From NCBI GenBank assembly GCA_022376925.1, contig JAIOJX010000032.1, forward strand, positions 102,416,794-102,480,793: a stretch of 64,000 nt of DNA. The letters run 5' to 3'. The position numbers and the translations under genes were made by a program. Under the pieces are notes generated by a model, which was given only the letters and a program-made list of their open reading frames with translations, was not told where the DNA came from and did not search any database. This DNA comes from Tragulus kanchil (lineage: Eukaryota > Chordata > Mammalia > Artiodactyla > Tragulidae). Of this stretch, positions 1 through 64,000 are shown in pieces (position 1 is the first letter of the stretch; each line of letters begins with the position of its first letter).

Positions 1-42
1 ATTGGCAGGCAGACCCTTTACAACTGAGCCACAGGAAAGACC
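1..42 (-). mobile_element. Bov-tA SINE, tRNA-head end only
   Basis: Identical to 1092-1133, the tRNA-head end of the Bov-tA element at 917-1133. The rest of this copy lies left of the window. Confidence 0.75.
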
Positions 43-916
43 ATGCTCATCTTCATCACCAAGTCCCATGGATCCTGCCTCCTACATAATTTTCAGATTC
101 ATCCTTCTCTCTCTGTACCCTCTTCCTCAGATCAGGACCTCATCATTTCTCAACTGAATTACTGCAGAATTAATGGTCTCTTTACTAGACTCTGGGCCGA
201 CAGAGTTATCCCTTATTGCTCCCCCCGCTTTCCCGCCAGATTCAGCCATCGGCATCAATCTCAAATTCAGACCTAATTCATCAGTTTTCTGCTCTAAAAC
301 TAGCAAGCTCAAGTGCCTATAAGGTCCAGGCAATGAATAAAAAATAAGTGAAGGAGCAGAGTAAGGTCTGATTTAGGAAAATGACAGAAACAGAAATAGT
401 GAATGTGCACCTCACCTAAATTAAGGTCCCACATCAGTCAAGCAAAACATATCTTTAGGCTAAACCCCAGGCCACCCGCCTGTGTGTTCTGGCATATGTT
501 GAATTATTATTCCTGCAGCCTCTCACTGCAGCTGCCTCTTGAAGGCGCCCGGACCAAATGCTCTTGCCTCATTTCTCACCCTGCCCATTCCTCACCCCCA
601 CTTTTCTGTCCTCTAGCTATATTAAATTATTTACTGTAGCTTTTACCAAAGCATATACATTCACACATCCATGCATTTGTTCATGGTATTACATTTCCTT
701 AAAACTGCCCCAATTCCTCACCTAGCGAGTTCTATTTCATCTTTCAATACTTACTCTGGAGGGCCTCCTGTAACTACCTAGAAAGAATTGCAGTCTTTTC
801 TACCCTCAGGTTTCTAGTGTGCATAGGCTCTAGAGGAGCCCCAGGGTTACTAGTCATAAGACAATCTGCCCTCAGGAAGTCTTCAGTTGAGTCCCTTCTG
901 GCATATCCTCATCTTA

Positions 917-1133
917 AGTGAAAGTGAACACATTAGTAGCTCAGTCTTATCTGACTCTTTATGACCCCATGGACTGGGGCCAAGCAGGCTTCTCTGTTCA
1001 TGCGATGCACCAGGCAAGAATACTGCAGTGAGTTGTCATTCCTTCTCCAGGGGATCTTCCCAGCTCCAGGGATCGAACCTGGGTCTCCTGCATTGGCAGG
1101 CAGACCCTTTACAACTGAGCCACAGGAAAGACC
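917..1133 (-). mobile_element. Bov-tA SINE (antisense)
   Basis: This tRNA-derived ruminant SINE reads on the minus strand. On the plus strand one sees the BovA body (gactctttatgaccccatgg, caggcaagaatactgcagtg, ttctccaggggatcttccca), then the complement of the tRNA B box (gggatcgaacctgggtctcc) and the head (tttacaactgagccac). It lies in the unit of duplication A. Its tRNA-side end recurs at 1-42, where the window starts. Confidence 0.9.
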
Positions 1134-1881
1134 ATGCTCATCTTCATCACCAAGTCCCATGGATCCTGCCTCCTACATAATTTTCAGATTCATCCTTCTC
1201 TCTCTGTACCCTCTTCCTCAGATCAGGACCTCATCATTTCTCAACTGAATTACTGCAGAATTAATGGTCTCTTTACTAGACTCTGGGCTGACAGAGTTAT
1301 CCCTTATTGCTCCCCCCGCTTTCCCGCCAGATTCAGCCATCGGCATCAATCTCAAATTCAGACCTAATTCATCAGTTTTCTGCTCTAAAACTAGCAAGCT
1401 CAAGTGCCTATAAGGTCCAGGCAATGAATAAAAAATAAGTGAAGGAGCAGAGTAAGGTCTGATTTAGGAAAATGACAGAAACAGAAATAGTGAATGTGCA
1501 CCTCACCTAAATTAAGGTCCCACATCAGTCAAGCAAAACATATCTTTAGGCTAAACCCCAGGCCACCCGCCTGTGTGTTCTGGCATATGTTGAATTATTA
1601 TTCCTGCAGCCTCTCACTGCAGCTGCCTCTTGAAGGCGCCCGGACCAAATGCTCTTGCCTCATTTCTCACCCTGCCCATTCCTCACCCCCACTTTTCTGT
1701 CCTCTAGCTATATTAAATTATTTACTGTAGCTTTTACCAAAGCATATACATTCACACATCCATGCATTTGTTCATGGTATTACATTTCCTTAAAACTGCC
1801 CCAATTCCTCACCTAGCGAGTTCTATTTCATCTTTCAATACTTACTCTGGAGGGCCTCCTGTAACTACCTAGAAAGAATTG

Positions 1882-2520
1882 ATCCCTCCCCATCTTACGT
1901 CTCTGTCTTCTCTACCCTCATTTTGCATGTATTGATTAGTGGTGGAGAAGACAGGTGTGCTATCAGGGTGCTCTCTCTGGACTGTTTTCTGGGTGACACC
2001 AGGCAGTCTTTGTTGCCCTAGTATCTCGCACAGAGCAAGCACTTCAGTAGAAGGGTGACAAACTGACACGTTTGGTGCAAGTATCAAATTCATGAAATTC
2101 CACATAATTAATTCATATTTTCACAAGAAGTAGCTTGACAAGCATACATTATTTTCACACCCATTTCCTAAGGGAGAAAAGAAAACCAAGGCTCCAAGAG
2201 ACAAGGTGGCAGCCTGAGGTCATGCTGGGCAACCTGAGGGAGGAGGGAGTCGAACAAGGGTTTGGACAAAGGCCAGCCAGTCCAAAATCATGGCCCACCT
2301 ACCTCTAAAGTCAAATGTCAGTATGACTTTTGAGAGTTCTAGAAACTTCTATCATGTCTGGAAATAGTTCAAACATTGTTAAGACCAACGATGGCAGAGG
2401 AAGACATGGACGAAAAAGAAAATGCAAAAACAGAGTCACACATAAGACATATGTCTCTCCTTAAGCATGCTTGAGCACCTATCACAGACTGTTAAATTCC
2501 CTATTAAGTAGATGTCCTGA
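1882..2520. other. Unassigned non-coding sequence
   Basis: I see no gene or clearly nameable repeat. Around 2000-2050 the wording (gtatctcgcacagagcaagcacttcagtag) resembles an old L2-type 3' end. Around 2170-2290 it resembles a decayed MIR. Both are too degraded to assign. Confidence 0.5.
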
Positions 2521-2632
2521 GTTCTGCTCCCAGACTTGTTTCTTACTTGCTGGGTGACAATGGGCATGTCATTTCCTTGCTCCGAACCTCCAAGTTTTCA
2601 CCTTTAAATGTAGGAGCTAGACTCCCTGATAA
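2521..2632 (+). repeat. MIR SINE fragment
   Basis: It carries the MIR order of words: a tctgctcccagacttg core, then tgctgggtgacaatgggcat, then tcatttccttgctccgaacc and the counterpart of 'cctcatctgtaaaatg'. Strongly diverged. Confidence 0.5.
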
Positions 2633-3590: not shown

Positions 3591-4469
3591 ACCTCATCTT
3601 GGTAGACTGCATTACTGTCAAAGCATGTTCCTCTGGGACTCTTCTCTACTGGGCATATCCTTAAGGAGAATCATAGTTTTCATCCCATTGACATTGGACT
3701 TGTCCATCTGACTTGCTTTGGCCAACAAAATGTAAAAGAAATGATGTATTATTTCCAAGCAAAATCTTTAATAGACAAACAATAGTTCTGCCTTGCTTTT
3801 CTCTCTGCCATGAGACTGGCAGTGCCAAAGAAGGGCTGTTCCTTTAACTTTGATCCAGGAAAAAGGAAGACCTGCAGCAGACTCACAGCTGGCCCAAGAA
3901 AGCAAGAAATAAATCTTTGTTGTCATGAGTTGTTAACATTGGAGGGTTCTTTGTTATAGCAGCCAAACTTAGGCTAACCTAAGTGATATGCCCACCCTCT
4001 CATTTTATGGAAGAATAAATACAGATGTAGGAAAAGAAATTGGAAGAGGAATAGGAAAAAAATTATCTCAAGGCTTGTGAATTGTAATAAAGTCTATGTT
4101 TCTCTCATATCCATTCAGAAGTTCTCATGTCAACAGTCTCTGTGTTCCTTGAAATTAATATATTAGAGTTGAATACTTTGGTAGCATAGCCCAGTTTCAT
4201 TTCTTTTGAATAAGTAAAACAGTATTTTCCTCTGCAAAGATTTCATCTGTAGTTTGTTTTTCCCCGAGTTTTCCTGTATAGCATCAAAGACCATTAGCAT
4301 GACATTTCTTCCCCAGCAGCTTCTTTCCCAGCTTCATAATACTGACTTTATACACAGAAGTATTACTTGGAATTATGGCCAGGTGTGGGAACTTTTAAGG
4401 CCATTGGCCATTTTAAATATTTGTATAAAGAAAGAAAGAACATAGGCCTAAAATTTTAAAAATCCGAGT

Positions 4470-4612
4470 CTTACTCTCAGCAGGGCTGCCAAATGGCTGT
4501 GTGACCTTGGAAAGTTCACTTCACCATTCTGGGCCTCTGTTCCCTATCTATCACAGAGAAGTAATATGTGCCATCCCTATTTATAAGGTTTATTGAAAGA
4601 TGAAAAAAAAAG
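4470..4612 (+). repeat. MIR SINE, copy in unit B1
   Basis: MIR core and 3' half are readable: ggctgtgtgaccttggaaag, ttcacttcaccattctgggc, ctctgttccctatctatcac, then a degraded 'aaggtttattgaaagatg' tail. It recurs at 5545-5687 through duplication B. Confidence 0.7.
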
Positions 4613-5544
4613 AGTCTGTTTGGAAATGTCCTTTGAGAGACAGAACAGTGTAAAAGGAGATGTATGGGAGGTGGGAGACTCCAAGTATTGTTAAATAACC
4701 TTGGACAAGCAGACCCTTCTACTGGGCATATCCTTAAGGAGAATCATAGTTTTCATCCCATTGACATTGGACTTGTCCATCTGACTTGCTTTGGCCAACA
4801 AAATGTAAAAGAAATGATGTATTATTTCCAAGCAAAATCTTTAATAGACAAACAATAGTTCTGCCTTGCTTTTCTCTCTGCCATGAGACTGGCAGTGCCA
4901 AAGAAGGGCTGTTCCTTTAACTTTGATCCAGGAAAAAGGAAGACCTGCAGCAGACTCACAGCTGGCCCAAGAAAGCAAGAAATAAATCTTTGTTGTCATG
5001 AGTTGTTAACATTGGAGGGTTCTTTGTTATAGCAGCCAAACTTAGGCTAACCTAAGTGATATGCCCACCCTCTCATTTTATGGAAGAATAAATACAGATG
5101 TAGGAAAAGAAATTGGAAGAGGAATAGGAAAAAAATTATCTCAAGGCTTGTGAATTGTAATAAAGTCTATGTTTCTCTCATATCCATTCAGAAGTTCTCA
5201 TGTCAACAGTCTCTGTGTTCCTTGAAATTAATATATTAGAGTTGAATACTTTGGTAGCATAGCCCAGTTTCATTTCTTTTGAATAAGTAAAACAGTATTT
5301 TCCTCTGCAAAGATTTCATCTGTAGTTTGTTTTTTCCCTGAGTTTTCCTGTATAGCATCAAAGACCATTAGCATGACATTTCTTCCCCAGCAGCTTCTTT
5401 CCCAGCTTCATAATACTGACTTTATACACAGAAGTATTACTTGGAATTATGGCCAGGTGTGGGAACTTTTAAGGCCATTGGCCATTTTTAAATATTTGTA
5501 TAAAGAAAGAAAGAACATAGGCCTAAAATTTTAAAAATCCGAGT

Positions 5545-5687
5545 CTTACTCTCAGCAGGGCTGCCAAATGGCTGTGTGACCTTGGAAAGTTCACTTCACC
5601 ATTCTGGGCCTCTGTTCCCTATCTATCACAGAGAAGTAATATGTGCCATCTCTATTTATAAGGTTTATTGAAAGATGAAAAAAAAAG
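5545..5687 (+). repeat. MIR SINE, copy in unit B2
   Basis: Same element as at 4470-4612, one visible substitution apart (ccatccctat versus ccatctctat). It exists because of duplication B, not a second insertion. Confidence 0.7.
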
Positions 5688-6026
5688 AGTCTGTTTGGAA
5701 ATGTCCTTTGAGAGACAGAACAGTGTAAAAGGAGATGTATGGGAGGTGGGAGACTCCAAGTATTGTTAAATAACCTTGGACAAGCAGACCCTTGGCACAG
5801 ATCAAAATCCTAGCTGTCTGTGAAAGCATCTGTACCATGCCAGGCCAGGAGGCAGAAGTTTGGATGGAGGAAAAGATTTTTAGAAGTGCTTCCAGCATTT
5901 GCATTTCCTATAGAGTGGGATTTCTGACCTAAGCTTCAGGGGGAAGGGGGCATGCAGAATTCCAGGGGTCTCTTCTGCGGTGGTAGTGGTGGTCATCATG
6001 ACAGCAACCTCATCTTCAGAACGTGT

Positions 6027-7288: not shown

Positions 7289-7980
7289 GCCACTACAGAG
7301 AACAGTAGGGAGGTTTCTTTAAAAACTAAAAACAGAACTACCATATGATCCTACAATCCCAACCCTGGGCATATATCTGGGGAAAACCATAATTTGAAAA
7401 GATACACACACCTCAATGTTCATTGCAGCACTATTTACAATAGTCAGGACATGGAAGCAACCTAAATGTCTATCAACAGAAGAATGGATAAAGAAGATGT
7501 GGTACTTGTATAAAATGGAATACTACTCAGGCACAAAAAGAACAAAATAATGCCATTTGCAGCAACATGGACAGACCTAGAGACTGTTAAACTGAGTGAA
7601 GTAAGTCAGACAGAGAAAGACAAATACATGATATCACTTATATATTAAATGTTAAAAAAAGGGTACAGATGAACTTATTTATAAAACAGAAATAGTTACA
7701 GATATAGAAAATGAACTTATGGTTACCAGGGGTAAGCAGGGAGGGATAAATTGGAAGACTGGGATTCACATATACATACTACTATGTATATATAAAATAT
7801 ATAATAATAACCTGATGTATAGCTCAAGGAATTCTACTCAGTGTTCTGTAATGGCCTCTATGGGAAAATAATCTAAAAAAGAGTATGTATATGTATAACT
7901 GATTCACTTTGCCTTACACCTAAAACTAACACAACATTATAAATCAACTATACCTCGATAAAAAAAAGAATAAAAAACAA
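7289..7980 (+). mobile_element. L1 LINE 3' end
   Basis: 5'-truncated L1 on the plus strand. It starts in the end of ORF2 (actaccatatgatcctacaa, gttcattgcagcactattta, caacatggacagacctagag) and continues through the ruminant L1 3' UTR (tgtatagctcaaggaattct) to caactatacctcgataaaaa. Frames are broken. Positions 7809-7980 are repeated at 8921-9092 by duplication C. Confidence 0.88.
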
Positions 7981-8206
7981 AGGTTCTGGCAAGAGGCAGC
8001 TAATTCACATACCTTGAGAACAGACACAGGCTCAGGGCTTCTCTATGCAATGTGGGCTTTGGTAACACAAGGTAACAGTTTTAACTTTCTGAGATCTATA
8101 CCTGGTCAGGCCTGAGGTAGAGGCTTCTTCTTCACCCCCTATTCAAATCCAGATTTTTAACATGGACATTCTATTTTTATTAAGCAAATCAGTAATTTGT
8201 TACATT

Positions 8207-8412
8207 CCTGTGTTGTGTGCAGTTGTGTCTGACTCTTTGTGATAGCATGAACTATAGCCAGCCAGGCTCCTCTGTCCATGGGATTCTCCAGGCAAAAGTA
8301 TTGGAGTGGGTTGCCATTGCCTACTATAGTGGATCTTCCTGATCCAGGGACAGGACATGTATCCCCTGCGTTGGCAGCTGGATTCTTTACCACTGTGCCA
8401 CCTGGGAAATCC
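8207..8412 (-). mobile_element. Bov-tA SINE (antisense), copy in C1
   Basis: Nearly full Bov-tA on the minus strand: cagttgtgtctgactctttg, tccatgggattctccaggca, tattggagtgggttgccatt, gtatcccctgcgttggcagc and the head ctttaccactgtgccacctg. Repeated at 9319-9524. Confidence 0.9.
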
Positions 8413-8430
8413 ATTGTGTGCTGGGCATTC

Positions 8431-8660
8431 ATGATTGGGATTAACATATATACATTACCATGTATGAAATAGTTGACTAATGAGAACTTACTGTATAATA
8501 TAAGGAACTCGATTCAATGCTCTATCGTGTCCTAAATAGGAAAGAAATCTAAAAAAAGAGGGGAAAATGTGTAGCTCACTCTGCTGTATAGCAGAAACTA
8601 ACACAACATTGTAATGTAACTATACTAAAAAAAAATTAATTTTTTTTTTATAAAAAAAAA
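8431..8660 (+). mobile_element. L1 3' UTR fragment, copy in C1
   Basis: Ruminant L1 3' UTR wording: gggattaacatatatacatt, gttgactaatgagaacttac, ctctgctgtatagcagaaac, cacaacattgtaatgtaact, then an A/T-rich tail. It lies just downstream of the antisense Bov-tA. Repeated at 9543-9772. Confidence 0.85.
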
Positions 8661-8920
8661 GGGAGAGTTGGGAGAGATAGAAGTGAACCAACAGATCTAG
8701 TTTCTGCCCTCCAGGAGCTTCCAGTTATAAGGGAGAAAAAAAGCCATGGTGTCTGGAGTGCAAATATGGAGCATGTAAGGCTGATGATGAACTGTAGCTC
8801 CTCAAGGGGACAAAAATTAGGAGGAAAAACCTCTCCAGGTTGTTATAAAAAAGGGTACAGTAACATTTCAAATTCATATATGAAATGCAACGAAAATAAA
8901 CCTTCCGATAATAAAATAAA

Positions 8921-9092
8921 AACCTGATGTATAGCTCAAGGAATTCTACTCAGTGTTCTGTAATGGCCTCTATGGGAAAATAATCTAAAAAAGAGTATGT
9001 ATATGTATAACTGATTCACTTTGCCTTACACCTAAAACTAACACAACATTATAAATCAACTATACCTCGATAAAAAAAAGAATAAAAAACAA
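8921..9092 (+). mobile_element. L1 3' UTR, truncated copy in C2
   Basis: Identical to 7809-7980. It starts abruptly at the duplication edge inside the L1 3' UTR, so it is not an independent insertion. Confidence 0.8.
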
Positions 9093-9318
9093 AGGTTCTG
9101 GCAAGAGGCAGCTAATTCACATACCTTGAGAACAGACACAGGCTCAGGGCTTCTCTATGCAATGTGGGCTTTGGTAACACAAGGTAACAGTTTTAACTTT
9201 CTGAGATCTATACCTGGTCAGGCCTGAGGTAGAGGCTTCTTCTTCACCCCCTATTCAAATCCAGATTTTTAACATGGACATTCTATTTTTATTAAGCAAA
9301 TCAGTAATTTGTTACATT

Positions 9319-9524
9319 CCTGTGTTGTGTGCAGTTGTGTCTGACTCTTTGTGATAGCATGAACTATAGCCAGCCAGGCTCCTCTGTCCATGGGATTCTC
9401 CAGGCAAAAGTATTGGAGTGGGTTGCCATTGCCTACTATAGTGGATCTTCCTGATCCAGGGACAGGACATGTATCCCCTGCGTTGGCAGCTGGATTCTTT
9501 ACCACTGTGCCACCTGGGAAATCC
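9319..9524 (-). mobile_element. Bov-tA SINE (antisense), copy in C2
   Basis: Same sequence as the element at 8207-8412, present through duplication C. Confidence 0.9.
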
Positions 9525-9542
9525 ATTGTGTGCTGGGCATTC

Positions 9543-9772
9543 ATGATTGGGATTAACATATATACATTACCATGTATGAAATAGTTGACTAATGAGAACT
9601 TACTGTATAATATAAGGAACTCGATTCAATGCTCTATCGTGTCCTAAATAGGAAAGAAATCTAAAAAAAGAGGGGAAAATGTGTAGCTCACTCTGCTGTA
9701 TAGCAGAAACTAACACAACATTGTAATGTAACTATACTAAAAAAAAATTAATTTTTTTTTTATAAAAAAAAA
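9543..9772 (+). mobile_element. L1 3' UTR fragment, copy in C2
   Basis: Same sequence as 8431-8660, present through duplication C. Confidence 0.85.
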
Positions 9773-10059
9773 GGGAGAGTTGGGAGAGATAGAAGTGAAC
9801 CAACAGATCTAGTTTCTGCCCTCCAGGAGCTTCCAGTTATAAGGGAGAAAAAAAGCCATGGTGTCTGGAGTGCAAATATGGAGCATGTAAGGCTGATGAT
9901 GAACTGTAGCTCCTCAAGGGGACAAAAATTAGGAGGAAAAACCTCTCCAGGTTGAAGGGAAAGTATAATATCCTCAAAAAATAGGAGCAAAAGGTCAGGC
10001 TTGCTCTTTTTTTCATGGAGTAAAAAAGCATTTGGGCCAATTGCTGTGTACTAAGTTCC

Positions 10060-10230: not shown

Positions 10231-10739
10231 GCCAGGCTGCCTGTCAAGGGTGTTTGGCTGGGAGATGAAGGAAGAGTAAGAACCATAGACTCACGTCACT
10301 CTAAGCATGGTCCAAGGCAGGGCTCCAGCCCCTGAATTAAGGACAAGCATTTACAAACTTTTAGAGCAATTTAACACAATACCTTTCATATGTCTGTTGA
10401 ATTTAATAATCAAAACTCAGATATGCCAGTAGTGAGTCTGGTTTTTCCCACCGTATGTCTCCATACATATATTTTTATTGCATTTGTTTAACTTTTAGTC
10501 CACAGCAGACTGAAAATTTTTAAAAATTGTTTTGATATGCTGGGAAATGCTGCTCTCCAGAAAATGACATGGATTTGAAATTCAGAGACCTGGACCCTCA
10601 TTTCTATTAGCTCACCCAGTGACATCCCCGATACCTAACCAAGGGAATTTAGCAGGACATTAAGCCTTCCTTGGAAAAGTTACTACCTGTGGTAAATGCC
10701 CACATCATCAGAGGAGCCCTCACATTTAAAAATCAAATC

Positions 10740-11023
10740 TTCAGGGCTTCCATGGTGGTCCAGTGGGTAAAGAGTCTGCCTTACAGTGCAGGGGGCACTG
10801 GTTCGATCCCTAGCCCGGGAAGATCCCATGTGCTGAGGAGCAGCTGGACCAGTGTGTCCAGTTACCTGCCAGCACTCTGGAGCACGTGCACCCAGAGCCT
10901 GTTCTCTGCAATGAGAGAGGCCATTGCAACGGGAGGCCCACACAGGCCATAGAATAAAGATTGATGAAAAATAAATGATGACTTGGAGGCAAAAAAAAAA
11001 ATCCTTAAAAAAAAAAAAGGAAA
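10740..11023 (+). mobile_element. CHR-type tRNA-derived SINE, copy in D1
   Basis: The head carries RNA polymerase III boxes: A-box-like tggtccagtgggtaaagag and B box ggttcgatccc, followed by ccgggaagatcccatgtgct, a CA/GC-rich body and two A-rich tail blocks. It is flanked by a 12-base target-site duplication (aaaaatcaaatc at 10728-10739 and 11024-11035). Repeated in unit D2. Confidence 0.88.
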
Positions 11024-11840
11024 AAAAATCAAATCACCATTTGGTGGTATGGGGGAGGGGTGATATTGGAGGGAGAGGAGAGGGGAGGAAATAAGATCAA
11101 GATGATACACTTGACTCTTTTATTATTTTCATTATTTGATAAAGGAGACTGGAAAATACAGATGGCGCCAATTATTTCTAACTTTAAATAAAGTCACAGG
11201 TTACAAATAAAGAAAAGGAAGACTCAGATCCCTTTTGGAGAGTGCTCATAACCAAGGGGCATGATCCAACTTCTCCTAGTGCCAGGAGGGTCTGCAGCTG
11301 CCTATGAGCTCATGTCCTGAGCTCTGCCGTGAACCAGGCTGCCTGTCAAGGGTGTTTGGCTGGGAGATGAAGGAAGAGTAAGAACCATAGACTCACGTCA
11401 CTCTAAGCATGGTCCAAGGCAGGGCTCCAGCCCCTGAATTAAGGACAAGCATTTACAAACTTTTAGAGCAATTTAACACAATACCTTTCATATGTCTGTT
11501 GAATTTAATAATCAAAACTCAGATATGCCAGTAGTGAGTCTGGTTTTTCCCACTGTATGTCTCCATACATATATTTTTATTGCATTTGTTTAACTTTTAG
11601 TCCACAGCAGACTGAAAATTTTTAAAATTGTTTTGATATGCTGGGAAATGCTGCTCTCCAGAAAATGACATGGATTTGAAATTCAGAGACCTGGACCCTC
11701 ATTTCTATTAGCTCACCCAGTGACATCCCTGATACCTAACCAAGGGAATTTAGCAGGACATTAAGCCTTCCTTGGAAAAGTTACTACCTGTGGTAAATGC
11801 CCACATCATCAGAGGAGCCCTCACATTTAAAAATCAAATC

Positions 11841-12124
11841 TTCAGGGCTTCCATGGTGGTCCAGTGGGTAAAGAGTCTGCCTTACAGTGCAGGGGGCACT
11901 GGTTCGATCCCTAGCCCGGGAAGATCCCATGTGCTGAGGAGCAGCTGGACCAGTGTGTCCAGTTACCTGCCAGCACTCTGGAGCACGTGCACCCAGAGCC
12001 TGTTCTCTGCAATGAGAGAGGCCGTTGCAACGGGAGGCCCACACAGGCCATAGAATAAAGATTGATGAAAAATAAATGATGACTTGGAGGCAAAAAAAAA
12101 AATCCTTAAAAAAAAAAAAGGAAA
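11841..12124 (+). mobile_element. CHR-type tRNA-derived SINE, copy in D2
   Basis: Same element as 10740-11023, including the flanking 12-base direct repeats, with one visible change (gccgttgcaacg). Its flanks duplicate too, so it was copied with the whole unit. Confidence 0.87.
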
Positions 12125-12431
12125 AAAAATCAAATCACCATTTGGTGGTATGGGGGAGGGGTGATATTGGAGGGAGAGGAGAGGGGAGGAAATAAGATCA
12201 AGATGATACACTTGACTCTTTTATTATTTTCATTATTTGATAAAGGAGACTGGAAAATACAGATGGCGCCAATTATTTCTAACTTTAAATAAAGTCACAG
12301 GTTACAAATAAAGAAAAGGAAGACTCAGATCCCTTTTGGAGAGTGCTCATAACCAAGGGGCATGATCCAACTTCTCCTAGTGCCAGGAGGGTCTGCAGCT
12401 GCCTATGACCTCATGTCCTGTGCTCTGCCGT

Positions 12432-39360: not shown

Positions 39361-39469
39361 GGGCTGGAAAATACAGAGCCTGGCTTGGCAGCCACATCTG
39401 TCCTAACTATAATCTTTTACCATAGAAGAAGAAAATAATACATTTTTATGGGCAGCCCATACTTCCCAC

Positions 39470-43626: not shown

Positions 43627-43639
43627 ATTTCAGAAAATA

Positions 43640-44830: not shown

Positions 44831-44931
44831 CTGTCAGAAAACCAGCTCAGGTGGTTCCCACCATGGCATCAAGTCACTTTATACCTCTGAACCTCAGTCT
44901 CCTCATTCATGAAAGTGGCTAAACGATAGCT
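44831..44931 (+). repeat. MIR SINE, copy in J2
   Basis: Same as 43640-43740, present through duplication J. Confidence 0.65.
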
Positions 44932-48049: not shown

Positions 48050-48259
48050 CATATGTGTGTGCATGGTCTGTCACACCCAACTCTTTGCAACCCCATGGAC
48101 TGTAGCCTGCCAGGCTCCTCTGTCCATGGGATTTCCTAGGAAAGAATACTGGAGCAGATTGTCGTTTCCTCCTCCAGGGGATCTTCCCAACCCAGGGATT
48201 GAATTTATGTTTCCTGCATTGACAGGTGAATTCTTTACCACTGAGCCACCAGGCAAGCC
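48050..48259 (-). mobile_element. Bov-tA SINE (antisense), copy in K2
   Basis: Same as 46961-47170, present through duplication K. Confidence 0.92.
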
Positions 48260-48373
48260 TCTTCAGGCTTAGCATCAAGTCCATGAGTACTTTAGAGAAT
48301 GGAAAGGAGATAATTTCAAAGTCAAACCTGAGTTGAGAAGCCTTAAAAGACTGAGGAACAAACATAGAAATAT

Positions 48374-49377: not shown

Positions 49378-49420
49378 CATTGACAGGTGAATTCTTTACC
49401 ACTGAGCCACCAGGCAAGCC
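49378..49420 (-). mobile_element. Bov-tA SINE, tRNA-head end only (third copy)
   Basis: Only the head end (gacaggtgaattctttacca, ctgagccaccaggcaagcc) remains, cut by the junction of duplication L. Confidence 0.85.
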
Positions 49421-51423: not shown

Positions 51424-53536
51424 TCCTCTTTAGTTTCCAAGAAAGCAGGTGGCTACAGCCAACTCCCCAGGTACCCAAGTGTGCAGTCTAAAGTTCTCTG
51501 AATGTGGGAACAGCCCCAATCCCACAGACTCATCATCTGAGTAGAGAGATGATTCAGTCAAATGACATTGGCCATAACCGTTTGAGAGTCTTTTATGATG
51601 TGGTCCAACTGTACATCAGAGAGTTGGCCAAAATGGTAAAGGAATCTTTTTTAAAGACCAGCCCCCTTTGCTTTCAAATATGTATACCATTTGGAACGTT
51701 CTCTAAACCACCTGGGCCCTAGGATTGAATTTCATGATGTTCTCTATAAAAAAAAAAACAAGACTTAGAAATAACATACCACATTAGCAACTAAGGATGT
51801 GTTCAGATCCCTTTGGCAAAAGCACTCTCAGAGCAGAAAGGAGTGTTAATGAGAAGGAAGAGTTTTCAGGGTGCTTGCAGAGGTTACACCTGAATGCAAA
51901 GAGAAAGCTAGAGTTTCCATGAGGCTTTGAGAAGACTATAAAGAGTATGAGAGCATGTTCTATGGCCAGTGGGCTCTAGTTATTTTCTGCTTGTCACGGG
52001 TGGGCCAGGAGAGGGAAAAAATATTAGTGCTAGTAGCTACAACACCCCAGAGAAGATTGCTATCTCTACAAGTTACTTTTTGGGGAGGAGCTTGCATCAT
52101 GTTGTAGAGAACTCTAGGGTGACAAAGAATAGCTTCCACTAGAATGTCTTCGTCACTAACCTCAACTGTTGCTTTTTGCAGCTCATCCCTCATCCAACTC
52201 ACACCCCATCTTTCATTACAAAATCCGTGTCCATGGGGAACCTACACAAAGTCAGAAGGTCCCATGACCCTGAATCTATTAGGTACCACATCAAAGAACC
52301 AACGGTGCTACTCTGAAAGCTTGAGTAACAGTGGAGAGTTGCATAGTTGATTTTGTCAAAGGCTCAATGCCAGACAACTTGCACCTTCCCAGAAGTCCTT
52401 CTGAAAAACCACCTTTAGATATTTTCTCCTCTCCTCAAAGTTTCATTCTCATGGAAAATTCTGAAAGTCAATTTCTTTCTCCTCTTTAGTTTCCAAGAAA
52501 GCAGGTGGCTACAGCCAACTCCCCAGGTACCCAAGTGTGCAGTCTAAAGTTCTCTGAATGTGGGAACAGCCCCAATCCCACAGACTCATCATCTGAGTAG
52601 AGAGATGATTCAGTCAAATGACATTGGCCATAACCGTTTGAGAGTCTTTTATGATGTGGTCCAACTGTACATCAGAGAGTTGGCCAAAATGGTAAAGGAA
52701 TCTTTTTTAAAGACCAGCCCCCTTTGCTTTCAAATATGTATACCATTTGGAACGTTCTCTAAACCACCTGGGCCCTAGGATTGAATTTCATGATGTTCTC
52801 TATAAAAAAAAACAAGACTTAGAAATAACATACCACATTAGCAACTAAGGATGTGTTCAGATCCCTTTGGCAAAAGCACTCTCAGAGCAGAAAGGAGTGT
52901 TAATGAGAAGGAAGAGTTTTCAGGGTGCTTGCAGAGGTTACACCTGAATGCAAAGAGAAAGCTAGAGTTTCCATGAGGCTTTGAGAAGACTATAAAGAGT
53001 ATGAGAGCATGTTCTATGGCCAGTGGGCTCTAGTTATTTTCTGCTTGTCACGGGTGGGCCAGGAGAGGGAAAAAATATTAGTGCTAGTAGCTACAACACC
53101 CCAGAGAAGATTGCTATCTCTACAAGTTACTTTTTGGGGAGGAGCTTGCATCATGTTGTAGAGAACTCTAGGGTGACAAAGAATAGCTTCCACTAGAATG
53201 TCTTCGTCACTAACCTCAACTGTTGCTTTTTGCAGCTCATCCCTCATCCAACTCACACCCCATCTTTCATTACAAAATCCGTGTCCATGGGGAACCTACA
53301 CAAAGTCAGAAGGTCCCATGACCCTGAATCTATTAGGTACCACATCAAAGAACCAACGGTGCTACTCTGAAAGCTTGAGTAACAGTGGAGAGTTGCATAG
53401 TTGATTTTGTCAAAGGCTCAATGCCAGACAACTTGCACCTACCCAGAAGTCCTTCTGAAAAACCACCTTTAGATATTTTCTCCTCTCCTCAAAGTTTCAT
53501 TCTCATGGAAAATTCTGAAAGTCAATTTCTTTCTCC
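51424..53536. repeat. Tandem duplication M (period ~1,055)
   Basis: Copy 1 is 51424-52482 and copy 2 is 52480-53536, with 3 shared bases. An A run is two bases shorter in copy 2 (about 51750 versus 52806), and T/A differs at 52386/53441. No nameable repeat in the unit. Its last 238 bases occur a third time at 54450-54687. Confidence 0.93.
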
Positions 53537-53944
53537 CTTCCTCCTGCCCTTTTGCTATATGCAGGAGCTTCTCAAGCTTGCCATTAGCTTAGTCCCCCAC
53601 CACCCTTGTCTCCTTGCCTGCCATCTTGCCATCACAGGGAGCCAGATGTGGTCTGGATCCCTGTCTGCTTTCTCTCTTCTGAAAGTAGCTGTGTTTTTAT
53701 CCAGGTTTTATCTCTCTGTCTGCTTGTAAGCTCCATGAGGTCAGAACTGGGCCCACTATCTCTCTTTTCCCTGTCCTGGCCTTTACAGCAACATCTATAG
53801 TAAAAGCACCATGAAAGTCTGTCTCTGCAGCAGAATCATGTGGAAATAGAGGACAAGGGTCTTTTCTGCTAGCCTGTCTGTCTTGTCCAGACAGTACCTA
53901 GCACCTTCCCTCACTCACCCAAGATATACCATTTATCAGATGTA

Positions 53945-54448
53945 TTAATTTCTAGATCTTCTGTCCAAATTACCACAAATTCAGAGGCTTAAAACAACAG
54001 AAATATAGTATTTCACAGTTCTAGAGGGTGCTGAAAAGGCCACAGTCCCACCCAAGCCTCTAGGGCAGAATTTTTCCTCCTTCCTCCAGCTTCCGATCAC
54101 TTCAGGCATTTCTGGGCTTGCTCCACATCCCTCCAATCTTTGTCTCCATCTTCACATAGCCTTCTTCCCTGTGTCTCTATCTTCACACATAGCCTTCTTA
54201 TAAGAACATGGAATTCTCTTCTTTCCCCACACTGTTTGGATTGAAGGATCATAGTTCCCCAGCCAGGGATTGTTTGAACGTGGGCCCTCAGCAGTGAAAG
54301 CACGGAGACCTAACCGTAGGAGTCCCAGGCCATCCTAATTCAGTATGATATCATCTTAGACTAGTCAACTGGATCTGCAAAGATCTTATTTTCAAATGAG
54401 GTCACATACTAAGATTTCAAGTAGAAGCGACTTTAGGAGGGACAACCC
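53945..54448 (+). repeat. Old interspersed repeat, copy in N1
   Basis: aattaccacaaattcagagg, cttaaaacaacagaaatata, tttcacagttctagagggtg, ctccaatctttgtctccatc, ttcttataagaacatgg and, after the inserted SINE, tctgcaaagatcttattttc and aaatgaggtcacatactaag. Related to 25.0 kb. Family name not assigned. Repeated at 55098-55604. Confidence 0.6.
54225..54332 (-). mobile_element. CHR-type SINE (antisense), copy in N1
   Basis: gatcatagttccccagccag, ggattgtttgaacgtgggcc, ctcagcagtgaaagcacgga and gacctaaccgtaggagtccc read as the complement of a CHR head with B and A boxes. It is inserted into the older repeat at 53945-54448. Confidence 0.8.
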
Positions 54449-55379
54449 GTACACAAAGTCAGAAGGTCCCATGACCCTGAATCTATTAGGTACCACATCA
54501 AAGAACCAACGGTGCTACTCTGAAAGCTTGAGTAACAGTGGAGAGTTGCATAGTTGATTTTGTCAAAGGCTCAATGCCAGACAACTTGCACCTTCCCAGA
54601 AGTCCTTCTGAAAAACCACCTTTAGATATTTTCTCCTCTCCTCAAAGTTTCATTCTCATGGAAAATTCTGAAAGTCAATTTCTTTCTCCCTTCCTCCTGC
54701 CCTTTTGCTATATGCAGGAGCTTCTCAAGCTTGCCATTAGCTTAGTCCCCCACCACCCTTGTCTCCTTGCCTGCCATCTTGCCATCACAGGGAGCCAGAT
54801 GTGGTCTGGATCCCTGTCTGCTTTCTCTCTTCTGAAAGTAGCTGTGTTTTTATCCAGGTTTTATCTCTCTGTCTGCTTGTAAGCTCCATGAGGTCAGAAC
54901 TGGGCCCACTATCTCTCTTTTCCCTGTCCTGGCCTTTACAGCAACATCTATAGTAAAAGCACCATGAAAGTCTGTCTCTGCAGCAGAATCATGTGGAAAT
55001 AGAGGACAAGGGTCTTTTCTGCTAGCCTGTCTGTCTTGTCCAGACAGTACCTAGCACCTTCCCTCACTCACCCAAGATATACCATTTATCAGATGTATTA
55101 ATTTCTAGATCTTCTGTCCAAATTACCACAAATTCAGAGGCTTAAAACAACAGAAATATAGTATTTCACAGTTCTAGAGGGTGCTGAAAAGGCCACAGTC
55201 CCACCCAAGCCTCTAGGGCAGAATTTTTCCTCCTTCCTCCAGCTTCCGATCACTTCAGGCATTTCTGGGCTTGCTCCACATCCCTCCAATCTTTGTCTCC
55301 ATCTTCACATAGCCTTCTTCCCTGTGTCTCTATCTTCACACATAGCCTTCTTATAAGAACATGGAATTCTCTTTTCTTT

Positions 55380-55487
55380 CCCCACACTGTTTGGATTGAA
55401 GGATCATAGTTCCCCAGCCAGGGATTGTTTGAACGTGGGCCCTCAGCAGTGAAAGCACGGAGACCTAACCGTAGGAGTCCCAGGCCA
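55380..55487 (-). mobile_element. CHR-type SINE (antisense), copy in N2
   Basis: Same as 54225-54332, present through duplication N. Confidence 0.8.
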
Positions 55488-55611
55488 TCCTAATTCAGTA
55501 TGATATCATCTTAGACTAGTCAACTGGATCTGCAAAGATCTTATTTTCAAATGAGGTCACATACTAAGATTTCAAGTAGAAGCGACTTTAGGAGGGACAA
55601 CCCCGTACACT

Positions 55612-56528: not shown

Positions 56529-58870
56529 AAAGGTGCAATGAATTCATCCAAATAAAGCCACTAATGACCTTTGACCTATGTACATACTCTATTAAGGTTA
56601 CAAATTATCTTATTCTCTGCTATTATGTTCATCTCTTTGGCTTTGGTACCTTCTGTTTAGGAGTGTCCTGATTCTCATCATCTTCTCGTCAGCTCTATCA
56701 TGAATTTCATTACCTGTATTTTCCTAGCTGTCATTATTATTTTGTCATCTTCATCTCTGATCTGACCATCAGAGATTAGCGTTACCTTTATGACATAATG
56801 AGAGAGATTTTGACACTTAAAGTTTCAACCAGCATTCTTTTTTTCAGTTTACATTTTTTGGCTTCCACTCATAAGATCTGAATTCTGGTATGATCAATAA
56901 CTGAAAAATTATTTAGAATGAGCCTTAAAAAAAATAAGGCATACCAAGAGAAGTGCAATTACATTTTAATTATCTCTACATTTTATCCAGTTATATAATT
57001 ATATATATGAATTATTTTTAACCTACTGAGAGTGACTATGGGCAGAAGAATTGTAACCAAAGTACTTGTCTATGCATCCTATTTTGTACCATTAATGATA
57101 GTTTTAAGTACAATTTCTTCTGGAGCCAACACAGGCTTTGTGAGAAGCAGATAGATACATCAGATACATTAAGATGGGTCAGACACTAAAATGAGATGCA
57201 AAACTAGGAGACTACATGCGACAAACTCAGTATTGGTGGTACTGATACAGGCCTGCACCCTGTAAGTGCAGGAATGCTCCTACATCCTATTTGGTGCAGT
57301 TAATATAAGGGGCATTTATAATCGTGCATGCTGTCTTGTTGAATAGACTCCTAATAGGCAAGCACTTCCATTTTGACTAGGTACCAAGGGAACCAAATCT
57401 ACTACTTACAATTTTAAACCTCTGATAAGTGTAAATACGTTCCACAGAATAGTTTCTTGCCCCAAACATTTGTGAGAGTTCAACCGTAAAGAAGGCTGAG
57501 TGCCAAAGAACTGATGCTTTCAAATTATAACACTAGAGAAGACTCTTGAGAATTCCTTAGACTACAAGGAGATTGAACCAATTAATTCTAAAGAATATTA
57601 ACCCTGAATATTCACTGGAAGGACTGATGCTGAATGCTCCAATACTTTGGCCACCTGGTGCAAAGAGCCAACTCTATAACACTAAAAATATAAAAGTGCT
57701 ATTCAGTTCATTTGAAAATAAAGGTGCAATGAATTCATCCAAATAAAGCCACTAATGACCTTTGACCTATGTACATACTCTATTAAGGTTACAAATTATC
57801 TTATTCTCTGCTATTATGTTCATCTCTTTGGCTTTGGTACCTTCTGTTTAGGAGTGTCCTGATTCTCATCATCTTCTCGTCAGCTCTATCATGAATTTCA
57901 TTACCTGTATTTTCCTAGCTGTCATTATTATTTTGTCATCTTCATCTCTGATCTGACCATCAGAGATTAGCGTTACCTTTATGACATAATGAGAGAGATT
58001 TTGACACTTAAAGTTTCAACCAGCATTCTTTTTTTCAGTTTACATTTTTTGGCTTCCACTCATAAGATCTGAATTCTGGTATGATCAATAACTGAAAAAT
58101 TATTTAGAATGAGCCTTAAAAAAAATAAGGCATACCAAGAGAAGTGCAATTACATTTTAATTATCTCTACATTTTATCCAGTTATATAATTATATATATG
58201 AATTATTTTTAACCTACTGAGAGTGACTATGGGCAGAAGAATTGTAACCAAAGTACTTGTCTATGCATCCTATTTTGTACCATTAATGATAGTTTTAAGT
58301 ACAATTTCTTCTGGAGCCAACACAGGCTTTGTGAGAAGCAGATAGATACATCAGATACATTAAGATGGGTCAGACACTAAAATGAGATGCAAAACTAGGA
58401 GACTACATGCGACAAACTCAGTATTGGTGGTACTGATACAGGCCTGCACCCTGTAAGTGCAGGAATGCTCCTACATCCTATTTGGTGCAGTTAATATAAG
58501 GGGCATTTATAATCGTGCATGCTGTCTTGTTGAATAGACTCCTAATAGGCAAGCACTTCCATTTTGACTAGGTACCAAGGGAACCAAATCTACTACTTAC
58601 AATTTTAAACCTCTGATAAGTGTAAATACGTTCCACAGAATAGTTTCTTGCCCCAAACATTTGTGAGAGTTCAACCGTAAAGAAGGCTGAGTGCCAAAGA
58701 ACTGATGCTTTCAAATTATAACACTAGAGAAGACTCTTGAGAATTCCTTAGACTACAAGGAGATTGAACCAATTAATTCTAAAGAATATTAACCCTGAAT
58801 ATTCACTGGAAGGACTGATGCTGAAGCTGAAGCTCCAATACTTTGGCCACCTGGTGCAAAGAGCCAACTC
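56529..58870. repeat. Tandem duplication O (period 1,191)
   Basis: Copy 1 is 56529-57673 and copy 2 is 57720-58870. The 46-base filler contains cagttcattt close to its end, as does the left flank of copy 1 (56504-56513), and looks like a shortened form of it. Copy 1 lacks 5-6 bases of gctgaagctgaagctcc near 57637. The unit ends inside a BovB fragment. Confidence 0.93.
57466..57673 (+). mobile_element. BovB LINE 3' fragment, truncated copy in O1
   Basis: Same sequence as the left half of 58657-59069, but cut at agccaactc by the duplication junction. Confidence 0.8.
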
Positions 58871-59069
58871 AACTGAATAAGACCTTGATGCTGAGAAAGA
58901 TTGATGACAGGAGGAAATGGGGGTATCAGAGGATAAGATGATTAGATAGCACTATTGACTTAATGGACATGAATGTGAGCAAACTTAGGGAGGATAGAGG
59001 AGCCTGATGTACTGCAGTTTATGGGATCACAAAGAATTGGACACGACTTCGCGACTGAGCAACTACCAC
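58657..59069 (+). mobile_element. BovB LINE 3' end
   Basis: Plus-strand BovB. The translated remnant includes TTRRLNQLILKNINPEYSLE and GLMLKLKLQYFGHL, the conserved C-terminal end of the BovB reverse-transcriptase ORF, then broken frames and finally gatcacaaagaattggacac and gacttcgcgactgagcaac. Several in-frame stops. Repeated at 59748-60160 and partly at 57466-57673. Confidence 0.87.
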
Positions 59070-59500
59070 CATCATACATTTCAAATATCGTTTCTTCTTC
59101 ACCATCCATGCATTTCTCCTGCCATATACTAGTAGATGTGTTTATATCAGGATCCCACCTCTGGTCCTGTCAGAGCCCAGCAGTTAGTAGAAATAGTCGT
59201 GGAAGACCTTCCTGTGCCAGGATGATCATCACAACTAAACTACATAAGGAGAGGACCATGATTCACATCAATGCATCTCACTAAACCCAAAATAAATGAA
59301 TCCTGGACCCAACATCACCTCAAACAAGTACCAGCAATGCCTGCAGCCCTCCAACATCAGCTAACATGAGGCAAAATGTGACATATTAGAAGTTGACACA
59401 AAGAGGCAGTGGGCTGGAGTGATTTAAGTGAAATACTGGACCTATGAACTTTGTGCAGATTCACATGATCATGCAAGTACATTGCTCGAGTCCCTCTCAG
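59070..59500. other. Unassigned sequence of unit P
   Basis: No gene and no nameable repeat. The 87-codon plus-strand frame at 59021-59284 starts inside BovB and is not a gene. Repeated at 60161-60591. Confidence 0.5.
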
Positions 59501-59747
59501 CAAAACCATTCCCCCATGAATCAAATGCCAAGTACATTGTCGAGTGGGGCAAGGAATGCTCCTACATCCTATTTGGTGCAGTTAATATAAGGGGCATTTA
59601 TAATCGTGCATGCTGTCTTGTTGAATAGACTCCTAATAGGCAAGCACTTCCATTTTGACTAGGTACCAAGGGAACCAAATCTACTACTTACAATTTTAAA
59701 CCTCTGATAAGTGTAAATACGTTCCACAGAATAGTTTCTTGCCCCAA

Positions 59748-60160
59748 ACATTTGTGAGAGTTCAACCGTAAAGAAGGCTGAGTGCCAAAGAACTGATGCT
59801 TTCAAATTATAACACTAGAGAAGACTCTTGAGAATTCCTTAGACTACAAGGAGATTGAACCAATTAATTCTAAAGAATATTAACCCTGAATATTCACTGG
59901 AAGGACTGATGCTGAAGCTGAAGCTCCAATACTTTGGCCACCTGGTGCAAAGAGCCAACTCAACTGAATAAGACCTTGATGCTGAGAAAGATTGATGACA
60001 GGAGGAAATGGGGGTATCAGAGGATAAGATGATTAGATAGCACTATTGACTTAATGGACATGAATGTGAGCAAACTTAGGGAGGATAGAGGAGCCTGATG
60101 TACTGCAGTTTATGGGATCACAAAGAATTGGACACGACTTCGCGACTGAGCAACTACCAC
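59748..60160 (+). mobile_element. BovB LINE 3' end, copy in P2
   Basis: Same as 58657-59069, present through duplication P. Confidence 0.87.
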
Positions 60161-61019
60161 CATCATACATTTCAAATATCGTTTCTTCTTCACCATCCAT
60201 GCATTTCTCCTGCCATATACTAGTAGATGTGTTTATATCAGGATCCCACCTCTGGTCCTGTCAGAGCCCAGCAGTTAGTAGAAATAGTCGTGGAAGACCT
60301 TCCTGTGCCAGGATGATCATCACAACTAAACTACATAAGGAGAGGACCATGATTCACATCAATGCATCTCACTAAACCCAAAATAAATGAATCCTGGACC
60401 CAACATCACCTCAAACAAGTACCAGCAATGCCTGCAGCCCTCCAACATCAGCTAACATGAGGCAAAATGTGACATATTAGAAGTTGACACAAAGAGGCAG
60501 TGGGCTGGAGTGATTTAAGTGAAATACTGGACCTATGAACTTTGTGCAGATTCACATGATCATGCAAGTACATTGCTCGAGTCCCTCTCAGAGCCTTAGA
60601 AAGCACATGAACAAGTGAGGAGCCCCGAACCTTGAGTGTTACTAACCTCAGGGTAAATTTATGCCTTCTTGACAGTCATCAATATTCCTCTTAACTTGGA
60701 TTCCAGGAGAAAATTAGACACTCTGGCTCACTCCTTTCCTGGCCTAACATTTATCTACAAAGACCCCTTACATATTAAACCTCTGGGACTTATTAGGAAG
60801 CAGGAAAGCTCCTCACCATGTGCTGGTAGATAAACATTCTAGTCTTTTTATAAATGACTGAACCCTGTGATTACACCCAGTCCACTCAGTCTGCATCACT
60901 CAGTGACCACACACCTCCCAACCACCATCTGCTCCAAGAAGATGTGGTAATAAGGACTCTCTGGAATAAACATCATACCTTAAGGCACAGAGATAAAAGG
61001 GCTTTTTAAGTTGCTTTTA

Positions 61020-61715
61020 AAATTCATTCAAATATTTATCAGTTCTTACTATGTATAGGGTGTTGTTTCATGGGCTAGAAATAGAATGAAGTGAGCAAGA
61101 GTTCCTATACTCACGAAGCTCACATTCTAGTGTGTGCAGAAGGGGGCCCACTCAGCGAATGCAGACAATGAACAAGTAGATAAGCAACATCAAACGAAGA
61201 TGTAAATATCTTGAGATAATAAGAACTATTGAGGAAAGTAGAACATGGATATAAAGAGTGGGAGCTTGCTGTACTGCATCACGCGGTCAGAGAAGACAAT
61301 CTGAGGGGATGATATCTGAGATAAGACCTGAATTAAAAGGGGAGGTCAGCCCTAAATAATCAGGTACAAGGGTATTATTGACAAATAAAAAAAGACAGCA
61401 AGTCCAAAGGCCCTGAGGCAGGAACGAACTTGGTAAAGTCAGAGAACGAAAAGCAGCCAGTGGGGCTGAGCCAAGTGAGGAGGAGCAGATGACCTCAGAG
61501 GAGTAAGAGAAGACAGATGCTCGAGAGCTGTGTAGATCACCATACGGAATTGAATTCCAGTGTGAAGAGGAGCTACTGGGAGGGAGGGTTTGGAACAGAA
61601 GAGTGACGAGGTCTGGTTTATGTTTTCAGAGATCACTTTGATTCACTGAGTGAATAATCCATCATAGAGGAGCAAGACTCAACGGAGGGAGACAATTTAG
61701 GTGATTATTTCAATA
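61020..61715 (+). repeat. Old interspersed repeat, copy in Q1
   Basis: tcttactatgtatagggtgt, gaagctcacattctagtgtg, gtccaaaggccctgaggcag, ccagtggggctgagccaagt, ggaacagaagagtgacgagg and gatcactttgattcactgag follow the order of the family seen at 46.1 kb, over a longer span. Repeated from 62164 and partly at 63604. Confidence 0.55.
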
Positions 61716-62163
61716 GCCCATAGAGTCCCTCTCAGAGCCTTAGAAAGCACATGAACAAGTGAGGAGCCCCGAACCTTGAGTGTTACTAACCTCAGGGTAA
61801 ATTTATGCCTTCTTGACAGTCATCAATATTCCTCTTAACTTGGATTCCAGGAGAAAATTAGACACTCTGGCTCACTCCTTTCCTGGCCTAACATTTATCT
61901 ACAAAGACCCCTTACATATTAAACCTCTGGGACTTATTAGGAAGCAGGAAAGCTCCTCACCATGTGCTGGTAGATAAACATTCTAGTCTTTTTATAAATG
62001 ACTGAACCCTGTGATTACACCCAGTCCACTCAGTCTGCATCACTCAGTGACCACACACCTCCCAACCACCATCTGCTCCAAGAAGATGTGGTAATAAGGA
62101 CTCTCTGGAATAAACATCATACCTTAAGGCACAGAGATAAAAGGGCTTTTTAAGTTGCTTTTA

Positions 62164-62856
62164 AAATTCATTCAAATATTTATCAGTTCTTACTATGTAT
62201 AGGGTGTTGTTTCATGGGCTAGAAATAGAATGAAGTGAGCAAGAGTTCCTATACTCAAGCTCACATTCTAGTGTGTGCAGAAGGGGGCCCACTCAGCGAA
62301 TGCAGACAATGAACAAGTAGATAAGCAACATCAAACGAAGATGTAAATATCTTGAGATAATAAGAACTATTGAGGAAAGTAGAACATGGATATAAAGAGT
62401 GGGAGCTTGCTGTACTGCATCACGCGGTCAGAGAAGACAATCTGAGGGGATGATATCTGAGATAAGACCTGAATTAAAAGGGGAGGTCAGCCCTAAATAA
62501 TCAGGTACAAGGGTATTATTGACAAATAAAAAAAGACAGCAAGTCCAAAGGCCCTGAGGCAGGAACGAACTTGGTAAAGTCAGAGAACGAAAAGCAGCCA
62601 GTGGGGCTGAGCCAAGTGAGGAGGAGCAGATGACCTCAGAGGAGTAAGAGAAGACAGATGCTCGAGAGCTGTGTAGATCACCATACGGAATTGAATTCCA
62701 GTGTGAAGAGGAGCTACTGGGAGGGAGGGTTTGGAACAGAAGAGTGACGAGGTCTGGTTTATGTTTTCAGAGATCACTTTGATTCACTGAGTGAATAATC
62801 CATCATAGAGGAGCAAGACTCAACGGAGGGAGACAATTTAGGTGATTATTTCAATA
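62164..62856 (+). repeat. Old interspersed repeat, copy in Q2
   Basis: Same as 61020-61715, present through duplication Q. Confidence 0.55.
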
Positions 62857-62861
62857 GCCCA

Positions 62862-63436
62862 GTAAGAGACAATGGTCTTCTGCTTACTACTTATCTTTTG
62901 TCCTAAGAAAGGAAAGAAGAAAGCATTTAAGTGAGGAAATTTGACTCCATCATTCCTGAAAGCTTTCAAACCGTATTTACTATTGAAGAGTACTCCAGTC
63001 TCTCCTTCACCACACACCTCCTCTTTCTTTGTCAAAATAAAGTGAGTTCTTCCGTGGATATTCAACCAATCCTCCCCAGTTATCTCAGGGAGTGTTCATT
63101 CCTGGATCTTTCTGTATCTATTCAATAAACAGCTCCTAACAGCCTGCTCTGTGCCTGTCAGGGCTTTGTATGTGTGCCCCCACTGGGCTACCAAGATAGC
63201 TCAGAGAACACCCTCACTGGATACACAGGTATATATAAAACTGAGGATACAAAGCACTAAATGCTATAGTGGAGGTGAGGTTGCAATTCTTGCTACTTCA
63301 GGTCCAATAAGAAATAGGGGGTCAGTACATGAGAACCAGACACAGAGTTGGTATTCATACAGAATAGAGTTATTGACTGGAGGTTCATGGACAGGATCTG
63401 GCCTTCTGGAGGAGACCACCTAAAGTAGGAAGAACC
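62862..63436. other. Unassigned sequence of unit R
   Basis: No gene. Around 63110-63260 (tctattcaataaacagctcc, ctctgtgcctgtcagg, ataaaactgaggatacaaag) the wording resembles a diverged copy of the old 'catggagctt' repeat family. The 102-codon minus-strand frame at 63293-63601 has no support. Confidence 0.4.
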
Positions 63437-63605
63437 CAACAGGCACATGAAAAGATGTTCAACATCACTACTTACCAGGGAAATGCAAATCAAAACCCTA
63501 GAGGGGTGGGATGGGGTGGGAGATAGACGGAAAGCTCCAGAGGAGGGACATTTATGTGTACCTATGGCTGATCCATGTTGGTGTATGGCAGAAACCAACA
63601 CAACA
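63437..63605 (+). mobile_element. L1 LINE fragment, internally deleted and cut
   Basis: aggcacatgaaaagatgttc, aacatcactacttaccaggg and aaatgcaaatcaaaacccta are L1 ORF2. The text then jumps to 3' UTR (gaggggtgggatggggtggg, ctgatccatgttggtgtatg, gcagaaaccaacacaa). The expected tattgtaaag continuation is missing because unit R2 starts here. Confidence 0.85.
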
Positions 63606-64000
63606 AGTCCAAAGGCCCTGAGGCAGGAACGAACTTGGTAAAGTCAGAGAACGAAAAGCAGCCAGTGGGGCTGAGCCAAGTGAGGAGGAGCAGATGACCT
63701 CAGAGGAGTAAGAGAAGACAGATGCTCGAGAGCTGTGTAGATCACCATACGGAATTGAATTCCAGTGTGAAGAGGAGCTACTGGGAGGGAGGGTTTGGAA
63801 CAGAAGAGTGACGAGGTCTGGTTTATGTTTTCAGAGATCACTTTGATTCACTGAGTGAATAATCCATCATAGAGGAGCAAGACTCAACGGAGGGAGACAA
63901 TTTAGGTGATTATTTCAATAGCCCAGTAAGAGACAATGGTCTTCTGCTTACTACTTATCTTTTGTCCTAAGAAAGGAAAGAAGAAAGCATTTAAGTGAGG

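Follow-up and report, generated by a model that had tools for sequence, protein, structure and literature searches.

In this work, we describe a series of near-identical tandem pairs, spaced by about 1.1 kilobases (kb), found in a stretch of 64,000 base pairs (bp) from the genome assembly of Tragulus kanchil (GCA_022376925.1, contig JAIOJX010000032.1), hereafter called the window, which a whole-genome search located at C2:102,416,794-102,480,793. Judging from the letters of the assembly, these pairs are almost certainly an artefact of assembly, of whatever form, and not duplications carried by the animal. As to its form, the artefact was probably produced by the end-to-end concatenation, without merging, of consensus pieces called independently of each other and sharing a fixed overlap.

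Near-identical pairs in the window and beyond

A sequence-only reading of the window had listed 18 direct tandem pairs together with their periods, and all of them (18/18) are present. The two copies of a pair are adjacent and direct, their offset ranging from 1,056 to 1,191 bp (mean 1,109), and their identity, over ungapped columns, lies between 99.5 and 100% in each of the 18 pairs. Core length ranges from 1,034 to 1,179 bp (mean 1,089) in pairs 2-17, the 16 pairs falling wholly within the window; pairs 1 and 18 are clipped by its edges, and their cores, once 10 kb of flanking sequence are taken in on each side, measure 1,057 and 1,066 bp. Repeated 31-mers number 15,964 in the window, whereas none occurs in any of the 20 first-order Markov resamples made of it, and 35,828 of its 64,000 bases fall within a duplicated core.

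Collapse of the window, i.e. removal, at every junction, of the letters from the start of copy 1 to the start of copy 2, leaves 44,038 bp of essentially unique sequence, containing only two repeated 31-mers: the window may therefore be described as 19 pieces placed end to end, with neighbours overlapping by about 1.1 kb. The redundant letters amount to 19,962 out of 64,000 (64,000 minus 44,038), in line with the previous estimate of about 19 kb. Beyond what had then been noticed, we found five stretches present in three copies (272, 157, 240, 365 and 322 bp; offsets of 2,205-2,282), overlaps or unmatched letters at the junctions, the lack of N letters and the continuation of the pattern outside the window. 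Third copies occur where the length of a piece falls below that of two overlaps, its left-hand and right-hand regions of overlap then running into each other. At junctions 2-17, the copies either overlap, by at most 8 bp, or are separated by unmatched letters, at most 85 bp. The count of N letters is 0 in the window and 0 in the 124,000 contiguous bp obtained by adding 60 kb of adjoining sequence; the latter contain 33 pairs and collapse to 87.2 kb, corresponding to a 1.42-fold inflation. The 32 pieces of this longer chain are 1,781 to 9,350 bp long, a range which led to the rejection of fixed-size polishing windows as a source.

A transposon or satellite origin was also rejected, in agreement with the sequence-only reading, which had described the units as unrelated: in a 31-mer scan of the window, considering matches of at least 40 bp, units matched only within their own pairs and in the five third copies. 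Tandem Repeats Finder, run on the window with periods limited to 500, reported small arrays only.

The assembly comprises 3,167,203,957 bases in 32 contigs, 16 of 73-297 megabases (Mb) and 16 of 0.19-10.7 Mb. Besides the window and the adjoining 60 kb, 12 scattered stretches of 10 kb, placed at round positions in 11 of the 16 large contigs, were analyzed, for a total of 244 kb out of 3.17 gigabases (Gb); the sample is not random and comes from the large contigs only, and genome-wide figures are accordingly rough. Pairs of the same kind were found in all scattered stretches (12/12), from 1 to 4 in each, and are thus not restricted to one locus, as a real tandem duplication would be predicted to be. 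In these 120 kb, 34 chains were detected, one of them being a fragment of 126 bp that accompanies a full pair. The 64 offsets collected, including that of the fragment and excluding pairs clipped by the ends of a stretch, range from 1,024 to 1,214, with a mean of 1,109 and a standard deviation of 38. Four places outside the window, resembling its positions 1-600, are all pairs, with copies 1,090, 1,121, 1,108 and 1,117 bp apart; the search that found them scored 10 candidates and was not a census, and the first three places were verified in their own sequence. Extrapolation to the whole assembly gives 0.84-0.90 million pairs.

A few peculiarities were observed along with this sampling. The 126-bp fragment, in the stretch denoted L019, is an extra, shifted copy (217-342 / 1304-1429, offset 1,087) lying beside the main pair, whose offset is 1,153, and makes for a messier junction. 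The one scattered stretch with a single pair, L011 (C1:20000001-20010000), contains two runs of N, at 416-477 (62) and 4150-4481 (332), for a total of 394. Some contigs are exactly 200,000, 225,000 and 242,000 bases long, a hint that a Hi-C tool may have cut scaffolds at round positions.

Differences between the copies

Where insertions and deletions (indels) distinguish the two copies, missing bases are concentrated at the ends of pieces. Among 16 indels in the window, 13 shorten whichever copy lies closer to the end of its own piece (p = 0.011, one-sided); counted by junction, 8 are for this rule and 1 is against it, with 1 tie (p = 0.020). Outside the window, where 47 junctions were considered, after exclusion of chains shorter than 900 bp, the rule is followed by 52 of 68 indels (p = 7e-6) and, by junction, there are 22 for, 6 against and 4 ties (p = 0.0019); for 33 of the 68, the piece lacking the bases ends no more than 100 bp away. 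When the wider edges of this second test are applied to the window, 18 of 21 indels follow the rule. Most indels involve 1-2 bp (53 of 68 outside the window) and many fall in homopolymers, a type that would be in keeping with thinly covered long-read consensus. The loss of bases according to their distance from the junction is, on the other hand, unexpected for duplications in an animal.

At least 8 unmatched letters are found at 10 of the 16 junctions numbered 2-17, and at five of these (junctions 4, 5, 6, 7 and 15) the letters correspond to a one-sided, degraded continuation of the other copy, with a score reached by none of 200 shuffles.

Single-nucleotide variants (SNVs) between copies are sparse: the window has 24 over 18,596 columns, and the sequence outside it 39 over 50,709. 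This rate is of the order of heterozygosity, and part of the divergence between copies may be allelic. The pairs might then consist of two haplotypes placed end to end, i.e. of heterotype false duplications: differing by about 0.12-0.13% in the window, with 15 of the 24 SNVs being transitions and 9 touching a CpG, the copies do differ as alleles might. Such an origin is nevertheless very improbable, since neither a near-fixed length of 1.1 kb at unrelated sites nor a concentration of missing bases at the ends of pieces would be expected from it, and since two pairs show no difference at all (0 in 1,040 bp in pair 16, 0 in 1,097 bp in pair 11). Allelic differences may thus be an addition, rather than the cause. 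Only one difference is found in the five three-copy stretches, and there the middle piece deviates, while the two outer ones agree. In pair 9, three base differences fall within 20 bp (39916-39935), a cluster which may represent a local consensus error.

Genuine tandem duplications, some 1.1 kb long and arising from an unknown replication or repair process, would also be direct and nearly head to tail, and the letters alone allow them. We regard them as extremely improbable: 0.84-0.90 million near-identical pairs would be required, if the sample is typical, and the indels are ordered by their distance to the junction. It is scarcely conceivable that, in a ruminant lineage, close to a million unrelated places recently had some 1.1 kb copied in tandem, once each, and the copying process would also have to leave missing bases ordered in that manner.

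Protein comparisons bear on the same alternative, and weakly disfavour it. Five reading frames of at least 60 residues cross a junction, and the search covered one of them, the frame at 40,173-40,691, on the minus strand, spanning junction 9. Among 43 candidates from a large protein collection, two related proteins were found; both depart from the junction, which neither of them shows, and continue into the native flank past 41,604. A native flank would be seen at a duplicated locus too, and for that reason the evidence is weak. A further search, with a frame not crossing a junction, gave one match, located in the part common to both copies, and is therefore no test of a junction. The region 36600-44800 of the window, searched in plasmids, gave no match; protein P0001, searched in viral contigs and genome contigs, gave 1 and 33 pattern matches, respectively, with no relative confirmed.

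Possible origins of the pairs and known false duplications

Under the reading that we prefer, the assembly would consist of chained consensus pieces, which measure about 1.8-9.4 kb in the 124 kb examined and would, by design, have about 1.0-1.2 kb in common with the next one. Had this overlap been left unmerged on joining, it would appear twice, first at the end of one piece and then at the start of the following one. All pieces would stem from one long-read assembly step with fixed overlap, in which merging would have been unsuccessful or left out; the offsets vary little, which fits an overlap fixed by design.

Some observations weigh against this reading. The end rule is contradicted by 3 of 16 indels in the window and by 16 of 68 outside it. 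At five of the ten junctions with unmatched letters, these have no clear likeness to either neighbour. The unique length of the genome would be about 2.2 Gb, if the 1.42-fold inflation of the 124 kb held everywhere; this is low for a ruminant, whose genomes are usually larger, and either the density of pairs may vary or sequence may be missing. Finally, third copies in the window fall on pieces of one parity, 5 of 9 odd pieces against 0 of 8 even ones (Fisher p = 0.029).

The last point would be expected if short contigs had been joined by fills that held, on each side, some 1.1 kb of flanking sequence and were inserted whole, with duplication of both flanks: gap filling with untrimmed flanks predicts that contig and fill pieces alternate. 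Also in keeping with such fills are the position of the one difference within the three-copy stretches, in the middle piece, and the distribution of the 13 rule-following indels of the window, for which the shortened piece is an odd one in 10 cases and an even one in 3 (p = 0.09). In the 124-kb chain, however, parity is not as clear (3 of 16 versus 8 of 16, p = 0.135, counting overlaps larger than 20 bp), and two short, strongly overlapping pieces (window coordinates 69,836-71,840 and 71,900-73,696; overlaps of 243 and 344 bp) follow one another directly. Piece length shows no clear difference by parity in the window (Mann-Whitney p = 0.11), and both parities are affected by missing bases, 10 of the 16 indels shortening odd pieces and 6 shortening even ones (p = 0.45). 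Neither this count nor that of the rule-following indels (10 versus 3, p = 0.09) established that the two parities differ in error type, as two technologies would, and odd and even pieces alike contain long homopolymer runs (0.63 and 0.79 per kb). The gaps to be filled would number several hundred thousand, and the extrapolated 0.84-0.90 million events seem too many. On balance, gap filling is an unlikely source, and it is simpler to assume pieces of one type only, overlapping by design.

The sequence-only reading had put forward an assembly or gap-filling step re-inserting an overlap, whose length would be about that of a read or of a contig end. Its more general part, an artefact of re-inserted overlap, is strongly supported by the presence of pairs in all 12 scattered stretches and by the missing bases at the ends of pieces; its gap-filling version loses ground, because of parity in the 124-kb chain, of the neighbouring short pieces and of the number of events.

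Unmerged consensus pieces could originate in graph assemblers of the wtdbg type, which derive the consensus edge by edge: a node is common to adjacent edges, and merging is needed after consensus. A wtdbg node consists of four 256-base bins, i.e. of 1,024 bases, and the overlap between nodes is limited to 256. The smallest of the 64 offsets is 1,024, and the shortest of the 32 pieces, 1,781 bp, would suit two nodes overlapping by about 256. With these parameters, the fit to wtdbg/wtdbg2 is not sharp, as cores go down to 1,003 bp (the 126-bp fragment excluded) and third copies are up to 405 bp long, above the limit of 256. That a program of this type, with shared nodes of 1,024 bases, was the source is about an even guess. 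Among bovids, the swamp and river buffalo provide an example of the use of wtdbg, with no link to this genome (PMC8289072). A paper on the bongo deals with another assembly, of 2.96 Gb and made from linked reads, and gives 2n values from 30 to 57/58 for the tribe Tragelaphini (PMC12239632).

No report of exactly this fault was found in our literature searches, and the known kinds of false duplication resemble it only in part. Scaffold joins derived from optical maps usually carry a short run of N, while the window has none, and its overlaps are nearly constant in length. The likeness lies in the artifactual tandem duplication at a join: these negative gaps of optical-map scaffolding are what BiSCoT corrects (PMC8389630, PMC7649008). 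In Btau 4.2, an assembly of Bos taurus, "segmental duplications" more than 99% identical and lying within chromosomes were mostly judged to be mis-assembly, and the authors conjectured, without verification, that overlapping bacterial artificial chromosome clones had been laid side by side and left unmerged (Zimin et al. 2012, PMC3411808). Those copies are likewise near-identical, but they are given as 3,111 duplications larger than 5 kb, whereas here a near-fixed 1.1 kb is found in every sampled stretch. Homotype and heterotype false duplications have been ascribed to sequence errors or heterozygosity, incorrect gap filling being also named, and a gap of N is "most often" found between the copies (Genome Biol. 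2022, PMC9516828): this is a typical feature, not a strict requirement, and here the number of N is 0. The sections consulted of a giraffe paper (PMC12621783) and of the LazyB (PMC8168326) and NextDenovo (PMC11046930) reports contained nothing useful on the mechanism.

Position of the pairs and expected consequences for the assembly

Positions of the 18 pairs are given below in window coordinates, copy 1 preceding copy 2. Pair 1 is whole only with the 10 kb upstream: its first copy runs from about 266 bp upstream of the window to 790, and the second one from about 825 to 1881. Pair 2 (3645-4718 / 4718-5793) is followed by pair 3 (7809-8842 / 8921-9954), whose two copies have 78 bp of unmatched letters between them. 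In pair 4 (10232-11307 / 11334-12408), the left piece carries a degraded continuation of its tail, while in both pair 5 (15183-16263 / 16302-17382) and pair 6 (17111-18152 / 18209-19253) it is the right piece that has a degraded head; a third copy of 15992-16263 is associated with pair 5. In pair 7 (26161-27199 / 27228-28266), the tail of the left piece goes on beyond an indel. Pair 8 (35505-36577 / 36592-37663) precedes pair 9 (39470-40531 / 40543-41604), whose junction is spanned by the reading frame discussed above, and pair 10 (43627-44805 / 44818-45993).

Farther to the right, a third copy of 47128-47284 goes with pair 11 (46188-47284 / 47277-48373), which is followed by pair 12 (48217-49382 / 49378-50542). 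Pair 13 (51424-52482 / 52480-53536) comes with a third copy of 52243-52482, where one base differs, in the middle copy only; next are pair 14 (53297-54448 / 54450-55603) and pair 15 (56529-57634 / 57720-58825), the latter with a third copy of 57270-57634 and a degraded continuation of the tail in the left piece. Pair 16 (58461-59500 / 59552-60591) and pair 17 (60579-61720 / 61723-62861), with a third copy of 61399-61720, lead to pair 18, which has its first copy at 62540-63605 and its second one running from 63604 to past the window end, and is completed by the 10 kb downstream.

At 42557-42748 of the window, a 106-bp unit is repeated 1.8 times, with 82% matches: unrelated to the 1.1-kb pairs, it is probably a real, old tandem repeat. 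The sole Rfam match, at 24507-24579, resembles a transfer RNA (tRNA), with 30.3 bits versus a gathering score of 29, and is perhaps part of a tRNA-derived short interspersed nuclear element (SINE). Three out of five ruminant SINE motifs occur in the window, which is a lead only.

The pairs are not a biological feature, but an artefact present in every sampled stretch, worth passing on as a data warning. Other public assemblies can be easily scanned for the signature of such pairs, in which self-match offsets peak at 1.02-1.21 kb and bases are missing near the junction. On the basis of the 244 kb examined, untrimmed overlaps appear to lengthen a chromosome-scale assembly, of 3.17 Gb, by a factor of about 1.4: as expected consequences, gene models would be broken or duplicated, copy-number calls false, distances overlong and the mapping of reads ambiguous.

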